From the NCBI GenBank assembly GCA_029940695.1, contig JAPYUP010000007.1, forward strand, positions 1 to 56,271: a stretch of DNA of 56,271 nucleotides, read 5' to 3'. Shown piece after piece: positions 21,745 to 48,309 of this stretch. A program made the position numbers and the translations under genes. This stretch comes from Candidatus Thalassarchaeaceae archaeon (GTDB lineage Archaea > Thermoplasmatota > Poseidoniia > Poseidoniales > Thalassarchaeaceae). The notes under the pieces are model-generated. The model saw only the letters and a list, made by a program, of their open reading frames with translations. It ran no database searches and had not been told where the DNA came from. Every line of letters starts with the position of its first letter. Positions within the stretch are counted from its first letter, which is position 1.

Positions 21745-22710
21745 CTAGCCTGACTCGGTGTCGAGGCCATCGGAATGGCTCAGTGCATACTCTTCTTGAA
21801 CAGCCTCGAATCGGGCATTGAGGTGTTTGGCCACCTTGCCAGCCACGTTGACGCTGGTGGCGCCCTCGATACCCTCTAGCCCGGGACTCGAGTTGACCTC
21901 GAGAACCAGAGGCCCCCGCACGGACTCGAGCATGTCCACTCCTGCGAGGTCGAGTCCTAGTGTTTCAGCCGCTTGAACGGCAATCTCCCTTTGCCTCTGA
22001 GTGAGCTTGACTTCGTTGACCGAGCCGCCAAGGTGGAAGTTCGAGCGGAACTCGTTGCCGTGCGCCTTTCGACGCATCGAGGCGACGACCTCCCCACCAA
22101 CGACGAAGGCACGAATGTCCTGTCCGTGGGACTCCTCGATGTACTCCTGGACCAGCGGCCTCATCCCGCGCTCCAGCATTTGGTACACCAGTTGCCTAGC
22201 TTGCTGTTCGGAACGCACTAGGAACACCCCCGAGCCATGCGTCCCCTCCGTGGACTTGACTACGCAAGGGGTGCCGCCGACGCGACTCACCGCGCGCCCG
22301 GTGTCCTCCCAAGCGCCGACGTGGGCTGTGATGGGTACGGGAACGCGCCTCTCGGCCATCATCTGGCAAGCCATCAGCTTGTCCCGACTCCTGACGATGC
22401 CATAGCTGGAATTGAGGACAATGGCTCCGGTCTGCTCGAACTGACGTACTATGGCAACTCCTCTGCGGGTGATCGAGTAGCCGATTCTAGGTAGGATGGC
22501 CTCGCACTCGACCGGCCAACCCCCGTGAAAAATCCTGCCTCCCTTCTCGCCGACCACTATGGTGAGGGTCAGGGGATCTATGATCCGAACCGCCCACCCG
22601 ATCTTCTCGGCCTCGGTAGCGAGCCTCCTCGTGCTGTAGAGCTCGGGTCCCCGGGAGAGCACCACCAGTCGAGGTTCCATGAATTGCGCCGCCATGGGCC
22701 CACCCTTCAA
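21745..22710 (-). CDS. RimK-family ATP-grasp ligase
   Basis: ATP-grasp motifs (PCVVKSTEGTHGSGVFLV, VQEYIEESHGQDIRAFVVGGEVVASMRR, GVDMLESVRGPLVLEVNSSPGLEGIE). Confidence 0.9.
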   Translation of the reverse strand: MKGGPMAAQFMEPRLVVLSRGPELYSTRRLATEAEKIGWAVRIIDPLTLTIVVGEKGGRIFHGGWPVECEAILPRIGYSITRRGVAIVRQFEQTGAIVLNSSYGIVRSRDKLMACQMMAERRVPVPITAHVGAWEDTGRAVSRVGGTPCVVKSTEGTHGSGVFLVRSEQQARQLVYQMLERGMRPLVQEYIEESHGQDIRAFVVGGEVVASMRRKAHGNEFRSNFHLGGSVNEVKLTQRQREIAVQAAETLGLDLAGVDMLESVRGPLVLEVNSSPGLEGIEGATSVNVAGKVAKHLNARFEAVQEEYALSHSDGLDTESG

Positions 22711-22812
22711 CTCTTTGCCCCGAAAAAGCAGTCCTCGTTCACGAGTGCTGGCCTGCGTGCCCGTTACGCCGAAGGAGTTGAAAGCTGTGGCACGGGATTC
22801 CGCTCCGCTAGC

Positions 22813-24975
22813 ATGGCCGGAGACGATTCACTCGACCGCGACACCCTGTCGTCGATGACCGTCGTGGAGCTTCGGGAAATCTGCAAGGAGAAATCACTGT
22901 TAGTCTCGGGCAGAAAATCGGAGTTGGTCGACAGGATTCTGGGTGATTTTGTCACCGAGCCAGAGATTGGTTCACCCGAAGCGGCTGACGCCCTGATTAT
23001 GGACGAGGGCCCCGAGAAGGCGAGCGACCCAGATTCCCCCGAGGGAGCTTCCGAGCGGACAGAGCACGCTGAGGCCGTGGAACGACTGATTTCTAGGTTG
23101 GGTGGAGGGGATTCACCCGAGGAGACCGCGGACGAGGGCCCATGGTGGGAAGGCGAGGTAGTAGAGGCCGAGTTGGTCGAGACTGAGGAAGAGGCTACGA
23201 CCAAGACTACCGAGACAGCCACCCCCGCCGATACCTCCGAGGAGGATGCGGCCTCTTTGGTCATCACTATCCCAACCATCTCGTCCCTAGGCGAGCGGTG
23301 GCAGACACTCATGGCCGTCAGTATCATGCTGCTACTAGTCGGGGCACTGGTGACCCAGGTATTGCAGCAAAACGCCGGCTTCGCTGCCAGGCCCCTGCAC
23401 TACGGTGACCAGATGGACTTCTACGTCAGAGAGTCGACCATTGGCATCGAGGGGGACGAGATGCTGACCGTCATCCGGGACCCCGTAGGAGGCATCCTCG
23501 ACGAAGCCTGCGGGCAGTTGACGGCAGTCATGACCGGAACCGGTCAAGTTGCGATCCCCCACGGCAGTGAAGACGGTGCGTCACCGACCTCCGACAGTTT
23601 GGGGAGAGACGGCTTCCTAGCAGTGGAGAAGCGACTCTCTATGGACTTAGACATCGACTTCGAGGGCAGGACGTGGAGGGATTCGGGGGATTGCGGCAAC
23701 ATCGGTTGGACTCTATCCGACAACAAGTTGATTCTGGACTCGACTAGTTGGGTCGAGTTGGAAGACCGCGATTCGAAGCGCTCAGACTCCACGATGGCGT
23801 TCACGGACGTCGACTCCCACACCACCAACCTGCGAGCAGTGACCTACGGGTTCGATGGCTTCGGCGGTCTCGGCACGATTCTGCCCACGCTAGCCTTCCC
23901 GATGACACCCATAGAACTGCGCGCGTTCTTCGATGACGAGGTGCTGGAGGCCGGCGCCTCCTCCTCGGACATATCCAACTGGAACTCGGAGTGGACGTGG
24001 GAGGTCAAGCCGGAGATCTCCCACGAAACTCACGGCTTGGTGTACCCTATCGAGATGCAGCACGAGGACATCGGCCAGTGCTACGGACACGCGTACCTCA
24101 GCATCCTAGTCAAGCGTGACAGTCCGTGGCCAGTCGAGCAGGTGACCGACATCGTCCTCGACAAGGACCTGAGAACCAACGACTGTAACTTCCTCGTCAG
24201 CTCGTTGTCTGAAGAACTCCTCCCTGAGGGCAGGCTGACTGTCTCGATGACGATATCGAAGAACATGGGTTCGCTCGGAAGCGCGGAGATCGATTGGAGT
24301 AGGGACTACCTCAAGCCGATGGCGGGGGAGGATCAGCCAAGCTCCTCCACGGAGAAAAACTGGGTTGATGCTATGTGGGATGAGTCAGAGATTAGGCCCT
24401 TCGACCTCGAGGAGGCCATCGCGTGCCTGAAGGCCAACTACTCGACTAGTGACGCGGCGATGGCTATACTCGGTGGCGGCTATTTCTGGCAAGCCCAGTG
24501 GTCCCAGCCCACCGGAACCCCCGAGTGGAACCTGTCTTGGGTGGACGAAGATGACCGATCGGGTTGGCTCGTGCTGCGCTCGGCGGACTCTAGCGGATGC
24601 GACGTAGTAGGGCAGGGCTCGAACGACGACGGGGACGTCACTTGGAACCGTAATGCCATCCCGAGCACGCAGACGCTGGCTCTGCTGGAGGGCAGGATCC
24701 TCGACCCGGCCCGATACCCGGATCTGCAGGACGAGATCTCCACCGGCACGGGTGGCACCTGGCACCCCGACTCAGTGGTCGGGTACCGACTCTCGGTATC
24801 GGAGGAAATCCAGCTGTTCAGCTTGCTACCCGGTGACCTCGGTGACGGGAAGGTGACCATGACCGCCGGTAGAGACTGGAGCGATGGCGGAAGGGAGCAC
24901 TCGGCCGACCTCGCCATGGACGCGGAGACCGGCGAGATGGTGACTTGGTACCACGTCGACCGCCCTGCAGAATGA
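22813..24975 (+). CDS. SAP-domain protein with one central TM helix and a large extracytoplasmic domain
   Basis: N-terminal SAP motif LSSMTVVELREICKEKSLLVSGRKSELVDRILG; TM WQTLMAVSIMLLLVGALVTQVL; ~500-aa C-terminal region. In-frame ATG at 22813 preferred over the 22525 start, which overlaps rimK. Confidence 0.8.
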   Translation: MAGDDSLDRDTLSSMTVVELREICKEKSLLVSGRKSELVDRILGDFVTEPEIGSPEAADALIMDEGPEKASDPDSPEGASERTEHAEAVERLISRLGGGDSPEETADEGPWWEGEVVEAELVETEEEATTKTTETATPADTSEEDAASLVITIPTISSLGERWQTLMAVSIMLLLVGALVTQVLQQNAGFAARPLHYGDQMDFYVRESTIGIEGDEMLTVIRDPVGGILDEACGQLTAVMTGTGQVAIPHGSEDGASPTSDSLGRDGFLAVEKRLSMDLDIDFEGRTWRDSGDCGNIGWTLSDNKLILDSTSWVELEDRDSKRSDSTMAFTDVDSHTTNLRAVTYGFDGFGGLGTILPTLAFPMTPIELRAFFDDEVLEAGASSSDISNWNSEWTWEVKPEISHETHGLVYPIEMQHEDIGQCYGHAYLSILVKRDSPWPVEQVTDIVLDKDLRTNDCNFLVSSLSEELLPEGRLTVSMTISKNMGSLGSAEIDWSRDYLKPMAGEDQPSSSTEKNWVDAMWDESEIRPFDLEEAIACLKANYSTSDAAMAILGGGYFWQAQWSQPTGTPEWNLSWVDEDDRSGWLVLRSADSSGCDVVGQGSNDDGDVTWNRNAIPSTQTLALLEGRILDPARYPDLQDEISTGTGGTWHPDSVVGYRLSVSEEIQLFSLLPGDLGDGKVTMTAGRDWSDGGREHSADLAMDAETGEMVTWYHVDRPAE

Positions 24976-25045: not shown

Positions 25046-25999
25046 ATGACATCGTCCGAGGACGGCGAAGCCCTGCCCGAGGTGAGGGCCGTACCGCTGG
25101 TCCTCGATGTGGAGTTCACCGAGATCGAGGACGAGACTCTAGCCCCTCCCCTCGATGCCGTCGACGAGATTAGCACGGCAAGGGCACGCCGGCCGATGGA
25201 GCTGCCGGCCTCGCTGCCTACGCCGCCCGGCAGGGCCCGCGTGGTCACAGTGACCAACCAGAAGGGCGGCGTTGGCAAGACCACCACTGTGATCAACGTC
25301 GCAGCCCAACTAGCTTTGAGGGGCCACAGGGTCCTCGTGGTCGACTCGGACTCGCAGGGCAACTGCGCTACCGGACTGGGGGTGGACAAGAGTAGGGTCA
25401 GGGCCACCACTAGGGACCTCATGCTCAGCCCTGAAACAGCTATCGACTCACGCCATGCCACGGCAGTAGATAACCTGCACATCATCGTGGGAGACAAGAG
25501 TCTAATCGGCATCGAGCAGGAGATGCTGAGGCAGCTTGGGCGCGAGAGGCGCATGAAGGAAGCGCTCGAGCCCCTTTTGCCTCATTACGACATCGTCCTG
25601 ATTGACACGCCGCCCTCCCTCGGCCTCGTGACAATCAACGCTCTGGTGGCCTCGGATGGCATCCTCATCCCGGTGCAGACGGAGTACTTCGCACTGGAAG
25701 GACTGGCCCTGCTCGCCGGTACCATCAGGGAGGTCAGGAGTCTGCTGAACAAGGATCTAGGTGTGGACGGCGTCATACTGACGATGCATGCGCAGACCCT
25801 GCTCAACCATCAGGTCGCTGGAGAGTTGCTGGAGACCTTCCCCGAACTGACGGTCAAGCCGGCTATCAGGAGGAACGTCAGGTTGGCGGAGGCACCCAGC
25901 CACGGCGTACCAATCCACCTACACGACCCATCGAGCGCGGGCGGTCAAGACTACCAGGCCATAGCAACTGTTCTAGAGCGCCGCTGGGGCCTCGAATAG
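25046..25999 (+). CDS. ParA/Soj-family ATPase
   Basis: Deviant Walker A TNQKGGVGKTTTVINVA, DSDSQGNCATGLG, IDTPPSLGLVTINAL. Confidence 0.93.
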   Translation: MTSSEDGEALPEVRAVPLVLDVEFTEIEDETLAPPLDAVDEISTARARRPMELPASLPTPPGRARVVTVTNQKGGVGKTTTVINVAAQLALRGHRVLVVDSDSQGNCATGLGVDKSRVRATTRDLMLSPETAIDSRHATAVDNLHIIVGDKSLIGIEQEMLRQLGRERRMKEALEPLLPHYDIVLIDTPPSLGLVTINALVASDGILIPVQTEYFALEGLALLAGTIREVRSLLNKDLGVDGVILTMHAQTLLNHQVAGELLETFPELTVKPAIRRNVRLAEAPSHGVPIHLHDPSSAGGQDYQAIATVLERRWGLE

Positions 26000-26000
26000 A

Positions 26001-26960
26001 ATGTCTGGGCGCGGTCTCGGCCGAGGTCTCGGCGAAGTCACCTCCGGGACAGATGGCCCTGACCTGTCCTCATTCGTGACCGAGGGTGGCATGCAGGACT
26101 CTCCCAGAGCCGCGGTCCTTTGGATGGTATTCGGCAGCTTCTGCTTCGGCTCGATGAATGCTCTAGTTAAGTGGACCAGCGTGCATGCCGACGTCTGGAT
26201 GATCATCATGGTGCGATCGGTGGTGATTGCCTTCGCCGTAGCGGCCTTCGCCGCGACGCGCGGGCTCAGCCTGAGGGTGAACAATCCGAGGACGATGCTG
26301 TTGCGCTGCACGGTCGGGCTGATTGCGATGATCCTGTACTTCACGGCCCTCGGCAGAATCCCGATAGGGCAGGCTGTCACCTTGCAGTACACCGGCCCAC
26401 TGTTCGTCGCCCTGCTCTCAGGCAGGGTGCTCGCAGAGAAGGTCTCCCCTGGCGTCGCCCTGCTCGTCATCACCGCGTTTGCAGGGATCGTGCTGATCGT
26501 TTCGCCGGACCTGCACAGCGTCGAGCCCGACGCACTGCTGGCGCTTGGATCCGGCTTCTTCGCAGCGTTCGCCTACATGTTCGTGCGTGAGCTGCGCAAG
26601 ACTGACTCACCGGCTTCGGTGGTATTCTGGTTCGCGGCGTTCTCAGTCGCCGGCAGCGTGGTGCAGGCCGCACCCGACCTGTTCTCGCTGGACCGTCAGA
26701 CGCTGGCCGCTTTGGTTGGGATAGGGATTGGCGCTGGAGGCGGCCAAGTCGGCATCACGATGGCCTACCAGAAGGCCAACGCGGCATGGGTCAGCGCGTT
26801 CTCGTACCTGACAGTCATCGTGGCGACATTCTATGGCTTCACGGTGTTCGGGGAGTCACTCAGCATGGCCGACTGGATAGGCGGCCTGCTGATAGTGGGC
26901 TCGGGCATCGCGCTTGTGTTCATGGTGCCCGCTGGGGACGAGAAGGCGAGTCATCACTAG
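26001..26960 (+). CDS. EamA/DMT-family transporter with a 30-aa ParB-N-like leader (MSGRGLGRGLGEVTSG...)
   Basis: Two EamA-like halves with about ten TM segments; leader in frame and 1 bp after the ParA stop. An internal ATG at 26091 could start the transporter proper. Confidence 0.85.
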   Translation: MSGRGLGRGLGEVTSGTDGPDLSSFVTEGGMQDSPRAAVLWMVFGSFCFGSMNALVKWTSVHADVWMIIMVRSVVIAFAVAAFAATRGLSLRVNNPRTMLLRCTVGLIAMILYFTALGRIPIGQAVTLQYTGPLFVALLSGRVLAEKVSPGVALLVITAFAGIVLIVSPDLHSVEPDALLALGSGFFAAFAYMFVRELRKTDSPASVVFWFAAFSVAGSVVQAAPDLFSLDRQTLAALVGIGIGAGGGQVGITMAYQKANAAWVSAFSYLTVIVATFYGFTVFGESLSMADWIGGLLIVGSGIALVFMVPAGDEKASHH

Positions 26961-47406: not shown

Positions 47407-48309
47407 CTATGCTCCGTCAATTGTTCGAATCCTAGCATCGGCCTCTCTTGCGAAGGCCCAGTACGATTCGCTGGCAGGATTAGATTTGGTTGGCTTCTGC
47501 GCGATGACGATGGGAGCTCCCTCCAACGGGGACTCGGCGATTGCCACCGAGCGTGGGATTTGAGTCTCGAGCACCTTGTCCCCGAAGTGCTTGCGCGCCT
47601 GCTCGGTCACCGTCTCGCACAGCTTGCTCCTGGCCTGAACCATCGTCAGGAGGATTCCGAAGAGTCTCAGTTCAGGGTTCACCGATTTCTGGACTTCCCT
47701 GATGGCCGTCATCAGCTGTCCCATGCCCTCTAGGGCGTAGAACTCGGCCTGAATCGGTATCAGGACCCACTCGGCTGCGGCAAGAGCGTTGATTGTCAGC
47801 AGCCCCAATGACGCCGGCGTGTCGATGATGATGACATCAAAGGCCCCCATAGCCTCCTGCAAGGCGAGCTTGAGCCGGTTCTCCCTGCCAACCCTGGTTG
47901 CTAGGTCGACCTCTATGCCGGACAGGTCTAGGTCAGCGGGCAGGATCCAGAGGTTCCGGATGGCGATGTGCTTTGGAGGGCCGCGCTTCCTGTCTGGGTT
48001 ATGGCTCTTCCAGGCCGCGCGCATCGATCTCGTGAGAACCCCGGGCCCCAATGTGCAGTCCTCCAGTCTGAGCGCGGAGTCGCCCACGCCTCTGGCAAAA
48101 AGCTCGTTCATGGTGGGCCCCACGTTGCGTTTGTCGACCCCGAACGTCGTGGCTACGTTCCCCTTCGGGTCCATGTCGACCAGCAGCACCTTCCTGCGAC
48201 GGATGCCGTACTCGTTACTCCCCATCGCTAGGGCGGAGGCGAGGTTGACCGCGGTCGTGGTCCGCGAGCACCCGCCCTTGTGGTTGACGCAGGCTATGAC
48301 TATGGTCAC
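47407..48309 (-). CDS. ParA-family ATPase homologue with substituted Walker A
   Basis: VNHKGGCSRTTTAVNLASAL, DMDPKGNVATTFGVDK, IIDTPASLGLLTINALAAAEWVLIPIQAEFYALEGM. Confidence 0.9.
   Translation of the reverse strand: MTIVIACVNHKGGCSRTTTAVNLASALAMGSNEYGIRRRKVLLVDMDPKGNVATTFGVDKRNVGPTMNELFARGVGDSALRLEDCTLGPGVLTRSMRAAWKSHNPDRKRGPPKHIAIRNLWILPADLDLSGIEVDLATRVGRENRLKLALQEAMGAFDVIIIDTPASLGLLTINALAAAEWVLIPIQAEFYALEGMGQLMTAIREVQKSVNPELRLFGILLTMVQARSKLCETVTEQARKHFGDKVLETQIPRSVAIAESPLEGAPIVIAQKPTKSNPASESYWAFAREADARIRTIDGA

Follow-up and report, generated by a model that had tools for sequence, protein, structure and literature searches.

What would a ParB-like box, laid out like the motif with which ParB binds ParA, be doing at the N-terminus of a membrane transporter? 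The question is raised by the window, a 56,271-nucleotide stretch of DNA (contig JAPYUP010000007.1) from a Candidatus Thalassarchaeaceae archaeon of the order Poseidoniales (Marine Group II), in which the gene for a Soj-type ParA ATPase is followed by a gene that joins a short leader carrying a GLGRGL box to an EamA transporter of the drug/metabolite transporter (DMT) fold with ten transmembrane (TM) segments. The evidence assembled below tips, if not by much, towards the leader being an inherited ParA-interaction tag, which would make the transporter a membrane-anchored partner of ParA. The features on which the argument turns are the following.

25046..25999, + strand: ParA/Soj-type ATPase, 317 aa, with the deviant Walker A motif NQKGGVGKTTT and the Soj-type DNA-binding segment RRNVRLAEAPS.
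26001..26960, + strand: fusion gene, 319 aa, a 30-aa tag leader plus a 10-TM EamA/DMT transporter; it begins MSGRGLGRGLGEVTSGTDGPDLSSFVTEGGM.
26001..26090, + strand: leader, residues 1-30, predicted to be disordered and cytosolic, and arranged like the N-terminus of the standalone family described below.
26013..26030, + strand: GLGRGL box, residues 5-10, a putative ParB-like ParA-binding core with the layout of L11-R13-L15 in Myxococcus xanthus ParB (PMC12462528).
26061..26075, + strand: second conserved motif, DLSSF, residues 21-25, placed like DLPFL of the standalone family.
26091..26093, + strand: internal Met31 (ATG 26091), proposed in an earlier note on this DNA as an alternative start.
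26103..26924, + strand: transporter body, TM1-TM10, residues 35-308, from topology, AlphaFold and fold matches.

The ParA gene closes with TAG at 25997-25999 and, one base further on, the next open reading frame (ORF) starts at ATG 26001, just as the earlier note had read it when it described a ParB-like box as a leader on an EamA transporter immediately behind ParA. The product of this ORF has the N-terminal sequence MSGRGLGRGLGEVTSGTDGPDLSSFVTEGGMQDSPRAAVLWM. Pfam analysis of the window ORFs assigned the ParA-type family AAA_31 (PF13614, 2e-54) to 25046-25999 and EamA (PF00892, 3.5e-24) to 26001-26960, in two stretches that represent the two EamA repeats, while nothing ParB-like was found by Pfam in 26001-26960, in agreement with the earlier statement that no ParB domain follows the box. 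The gene order and the fusion are established.

We gathered 110 ParA loci of the order Poseidoniales and sorted them by the gene after ParA into three states. State S (37 loci; genera g2, g3, g5, g7, g15, g16, g20 and g21) has a standalone protein after ParA, the gene for which usually begins no more than a few bases away from the ParA stop codon; state F (38 loci; all 23 of g1, g6, g18, four of g4 and one of g9) has the box leader in frame with EamA; and state N (35 loci; g8, g10 and most of g9 and g4) has EamA after ParA without the box. One bin assigned to g7, G226, holds two ParA loci, L077 (G226:C9) and L078 (G226:C41), one of them g3-like, and is probably a mixed bin. EamA orthologs were limited to genera with state F or N, except for one 25%-identical match. 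Among 60 genomes searched, the standalone domain was found in none of those bearing EamA (G000, the genome of the window, included), not even as a relocated copy, and in nearly all of those lacking EamA; the S protein and EamA are mutually exclusive and never occur together.

The standalone protein (~130-165 aa) consists of a ParB-like N-terminal box (LGRGLDDLL), a DLPFL motif and a C-terminal domain, with an N-terminus that reads, for example, RGLGRGLDDLLAQHDTDLPFLDAYGP. It was found at 67 loci, all of them in Poseidoniales, in a scan of ~85,000 species that was pattern-based, so that remote members could escape it. Pfam recognized no domain in this protein, for which AlphaFold predicted a flexible N-terminus and a confident domain (predicted local distance difference test score, pLDDT, 92-98 over most of the domain) in the order helix, two strands, short helix, two strands, helix. 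No solved structure resembling the C-terminal domain was returned by a PDB-fold search (best E 0.2), in which a weak resemblance to T4 MotA was seen. The N-terminus of this family provides the link to the window: a profile built from it detected 35 of the 38 F proteins at E<1, nine of them at E<0.01 (Z=1000), and none of the 35 N proteins, and the same profile gave nine matches at E<1 among 1070 control ORFs, the top six being true standalone proteins. The motif L-x-R-x-L-x-x-L-I is complete in the standalone family, and its L, R and L together with the next aliphatic residue are mostly present in the F leaders.

In a quick maximum-likelihood tree of ParA, the S loci were basal and occurred in both families, and a single clade (SH-aLRT support 95) took in every F and N locus; EamA therefore most simply entered once, S being the ancestral form whose place it took. 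The distribution of F and N on the same tree requires four changes, which would most simply be repeated losses of the box. In the transporter tree, L002, L022 and L024 stood on a very long branch apart from all other EamA proteins, even though L002 and the window share 91% identity in ParA. The box therefore rides on two deeply diverged transporter bodies, and in these three loci the body was replaced and the box kept. Ancestry and replacement being established at the level of the locus, the tag itself would have been inherited from a standalone, soluble, ParA-linked family whose gene EamA replaced, an origin that had no part in the earlier note.

Selection on the leader was estimated from 20 members of the window's genus without indels. 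The box showed a nonsynonymous proportion (pN) of 0.047 against a synonymous proportion (pS) of 0.67, i.e., a ratio (omega) of 0.07; omega was 0.05 for xDLSSF, 0.42 for the eight codons between the two motifs and 0.11 for the first 120 transporter codons. The first half of the box had the same Gly, Leu and Gly in all 20 sequences, each of the three encoded by 3-5 different codons. Low omega in two motifs, varied codons and a looser linker together point to selection on two short protein motifs, and neither on the DNA nor on the whole leader evenly. Elsewhere the omega of the box was 0.03 in g18, 0.08 in g4 and 0.28 in g6 (only four sequences). Purifying selection is established where the box is present, and the neutral drift of the upstream codons that the earlier note had considered does not take place there.

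AlphaFold (AF2) predicted ten TM segments for the fusion protein and a disordered stretch over residues 1-32 (pLDDT <50). The transporter matched the folds of the DMT proteins SLC35B1 (E 8e-8), YddG (which we take to be PDB entry 5i20) and LicB, with which it shares the two EamA repeats, ten TM helices and the DMT fold; the window protein differs from these in its N-terminal ParB-like tag and its ParA linkage. DMT proteins generally have a cytosolic N-terminus. Positively charged residues are found for the most part on the even-to-odd loops and, according to the positive-inside rule and the DMT fold, the N-terminus and with it the leader should be cytosolic.

On the ParA side, a PDB match was obtained to M. 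xanthus ParA (8ray, 1.6e-59). In alignment with it K36, D58, D60 and N64 do not vary, R or K occupies the position of the DNA-binding R238, and the protein is a Soj-type ATPase with deviant Walker A, catalytic Asp/Asn and basic DNA-binding residue. The ParB pocket on M. xanthus ParA has been mapped by mutation and NMR (PMC12462528), and of its residues F-state ParA retains L150, G151, L152, L155 (as I), L192 and E117. Most of the hydrophobic half of the pocket is present; the site facing the box arginine has either been remodelled or disappeared. Four of 18 pocket sites (118, 152, 155 and 192) show no variation in F but differ in the N lineages, compared with 17 of 250 columns (p 0.026 in a column permutation that made no correction for kinship), and L152I was found in all four N genera. 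Since S loci also vary at position 152, this correlated drift is suggestive only.

No HTH_ParB domain was detected in G000, and the 60 genomes gave one clear and two near-threshold matches. The clear match is a true HTH_ParB protein of G020 that follows a second, divergent ParA (45% identity; G020:C42:77211-78664); the two lie on another contig, in a bin with 3% contamination, and this contig is probably bacterial and was binned in. PF02195 gave one weak match in G000, to L031 (G000:C30:36622-36834), a single-domain ParB_N/Srx-like protein without the box, which lies by a tRNA-like stretch and is unrelated to ParA. The absence of ParB is established to this extent.

The full box and ParA occur together. 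LGRGL was present in 43 of the 44 standalone genes adjoining ParA vs none of the 20 without it, all 20 of which lack the LG, although these 64 genes are not independent events, the ParA-less ones being relatives. Where Poseidoniaceae genera lack this ParA, no parA separates the standalone gene from the SAP/TM gene described below, which it follows directly, and the N-terminus of the standalone product is MSGRGLDHLIEQNETDLGFLSAYGGG; the residue lost corresponds to L11 of M. xanthus ParB. Replacement of L11 by serine strongly impairs ParA binding (PMC12462528). The co-occurrence is established, and the idea can therefore be tested with peptides. In G053 (L092), G044 (L093) and G173 (L094), ParA is kept and the box is cut. 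Six ParA-less loci (L152, L154, L158, L166, L169 and L180) have a standalone protein that still keeps RGLDHLIEQNETDLGFLSAYGG, even though the ligand presumed for it is missing.

If the leader is indeed a ParA tag, the ancestral partner of the Soj-type ParA would have been the small soluble protein with box, DLPFL and new C-terminal domain whose gene directly follows parA. Within the window's family, a single clade had all but the first ~30 codons of this gene replaced by an EamA/DMT gene, to which these codons are joined in frame, and the tag would now sit on the cytosolic N-terminus of a transporter, where nucleoid-bound ParA-ATP would meet its activator at the membrane. Two EamA units, if dimeric, would offer two tags as ParB dimers do. 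The outcome might be a transporter placed relative to the nucleoid, ParA cleared from membrane-near DNA, or a nucleoid tied to the membrane. We infer the steps of binding, ATPase stimulation and positioning or tethering. In the known partners of ParA-family ATPases, it is the N-terminal tag that acts on the ATPase, cargo being bound by the remainder of the protein (PMC10241942), and a synthetic ParB peptide alone stimulates ParA (PMC12462528). Whether ParA has in fact lost its soluble partner and taken a membrane transporter, so that it would work between nucleoid and membrane in a system that has neither ParB nor parS, is in our judgement evenly balanced.

The gene upstream of ParA also bears on this picture.

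22525..24975, + strand: SAP-domain gene (Pfam SAP 1.4e-10; hydropathy; synteny).

Its product has one predicted TM helix (by hydropathy, at about residues 258-283 of the called ORF) and a large C-terminal part, and the GTG start called for it is probably too far upstream, the orthologs beginning near SLDRDTLSS. This conserved SAP/TM gene precedes ParA in all three states, or otherwise the standalone gene; the regular expression used for SAP missed most orthologs in its strict form and, when loosened, still misses some true SAP domains. The SAP domain is generally a DNA-binding fold. Its presence on a membrane-anchored protein from this row of genes is in keeping with a nucleoid-membrane theme but is no proof of one. 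A second ParA/MinD-like ATPase (300 aa) is encoded elsewhere in the window (47407-48309, - strand); it is conserved across the order, and its P-loop, HKGGCSRTTT, is odd in having Arg in place of the second Walker lysine.

Several alternatives to an inherited ParA tag were weighed. As GLGRGL is short and of low complexity, it might resemble the ParB box by chance only. We searched for it as a degenerate DNA pattern, tolerating F for L, with the reversed pattern as control. The 1.42-Mb genome G000 gave four matches vs two for the control, and of its other matches two lay outside the main gene frames and the third, L032, reads GFGRG. In 12 other genomes with the locus, the only N-terminal match in a main frame was in the gene after ParA, the remaining main-frame matches being an internal GFGSGF of a 422-434-aa protein, and box-less genomes held no second, hidden copy, their matches being out of frame or internal. 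The box is thus the sole N-terminal coding occurrence per genome checked, always after ParA, and is common to the standalone family as well, which makes chance hardly credible. Because it is conserved after ParA on two different proteins, in 38 EamA loci and in nearly all of the 37 others, the box after ParA is no coincidence. The absence of the box from loci that keep ParA and EamA, in which the earlier note would have seen a sign of coincidence, was found at 35 of 73 loci (g8, g10 and the greater part of both g9 and g4) and not at the 38 F loci. Very unlikely, too, are two products, i.e., a short box peptide or a leaderless transporter starting at Met31 with the upstream codons translated apart. 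Met31 is kept in 19 of the 20 core genus loci, with GAGG five bases upstream; this GAGG, however, is merely part of the codons for conserved acidic residues, Met31 is absent in g4, g6, g18 and three genus members (L002, L022 and L024), and no stop or frameshift separates the box from TM1 in any of the 38 F loci. Together with the strong constraint at the protein level, this favours a tethered tag with the layout of the ParA-binding motif of ParB, which is part of the transporter, over the separately translated ~30-aa peptide that the earlier note had offered as its other option. The predicted tryptic peptide GLGEVTSGTDGPDLSSFVTEGGMQDSPR of the fusion protein spans Met31.

The tag reading itself faces several points that weigh against it. 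The box is missing from those 35 of 73 loci with ~4 changes on the tree, and its loss while ParA and EamA stay implies that the interaction is dispensable. The equivalent of I19, the fourth hydrophobic position, is mostly Y/T/A/S in F leaders. In all Poseidoniales ParA proteins Y81 is Arg/Lys, V116 is Gln/acidic and L187 is Glu/Gln, and it is Tyr81 of M. xanthus ParA that meets the box arginine of ParB (PMC12462528). The pocket drift in N amounts to 3-4 independent events, always in the expected direction, for which a sign test is not significant. The leader could instead be a relic of the arrival of EamA in the standalone gene, whose opening codons would have been retained as a handy start; the tag would no longer serve ParA and would be disappearing lineage by lineage. 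We regard this as rather unlikely. The repeated losses, the unkept I19-equivalent and Tyr81 sites and the weakened boxes of L020 (GLGISL), L019 (GLGMGL) and L026 (VLGRNL) speak for it, whereas in the genus the box and DLSSF are tighter than the linker and at least as tight as the transporter body at near-saturated synonymous change, the box is likewise constrained in g18 and g4, and it stays on the deeply diverged EamA body of L002, L022 and L024. Function is preferred over a relic mainly because of these selection data, since dispensability and the changed arginine site fit a relic equally. Quite improbable, in turn, is a functional leader with a partner other than this ParA, namely the ligand that the standalone N-terminus has in genomes lacking such a ParA; this might be the SAP/TM protein encoded upstream, or else the ParA/MinD-like ATPase found elsewhere in the window. 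ParA-less Poseidoniaceae keep RGLDHL...DLGFLSAYGG by the SAP/TM gene, and the rest of the motif must therefore serve another use there; against such a partner at the F loci, ParA-less genomes lose exactly the LG of LGRGL, whereas GLG is kept in 20 of 20 core genus members.

ParA with a tagged partner is known; new here are a membrane transporter as the probable partner, a standalone partner family and the lack of a ParB. Chromosomal ParABS (Soj/Spo0J) likewise combines a Soj-type ParA with an adjoining partner gene and a disordered N-terminal tag (L-x-R-x-L-x-x-hydrophobic), but the present system has an archaeal host, a changed Tyr81 site on ParA and no ParB/Srx-like or helix-turn-helix domain, its partner being a transporter or, ancestrally, a small new-domain protein. 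The ParA/MinD positioning ATPases (McdA/McdB, PpfA/TlpT, PomZ/PomX, ParC; PMC10241942) also pair an ATPase with a partner that has an N-terminal tag and a cargo-specific rest, and an adjoining partner with a disordered N-terminal tag, as in such modules, is present here; unlike in those, the cargo end is a 10-TM small-molecule transporter, and the same tag is found on two unrelated bodies at one locus. In the archaeal SegAB system (PMC5120986), too, a ParA homologue is followed directly by the gene for a partner that is not a ParB, a likeness of gene arrangement. In the open-licence papers searched, no ParB-box transporter or comparable DNA-membrane link was found.

The locus exposes a standalone ParA-linked family with a domain that matches nothing known in Pfam or among solved structures. 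ParA-family ATPases are thought to be re-targeted via the N-terminal tag of the partner, and a natural swap at one locus would be unusual. At one operon position in abundant, uncultured archaea of the ocean surface a whole series can be seen, from a soluble protein without ParA, to the same with ParA, to the tag on a transporter, to the loss of the tag. Should the tag bind ParA, a nucleoid ATPase would have a small-molecule carrier as its partner and as a link between DNA and membrane; and, provided that the tag is functional, the cell membrane would be where ParA acts, in place of a DNA-binding partner of the ParB type.
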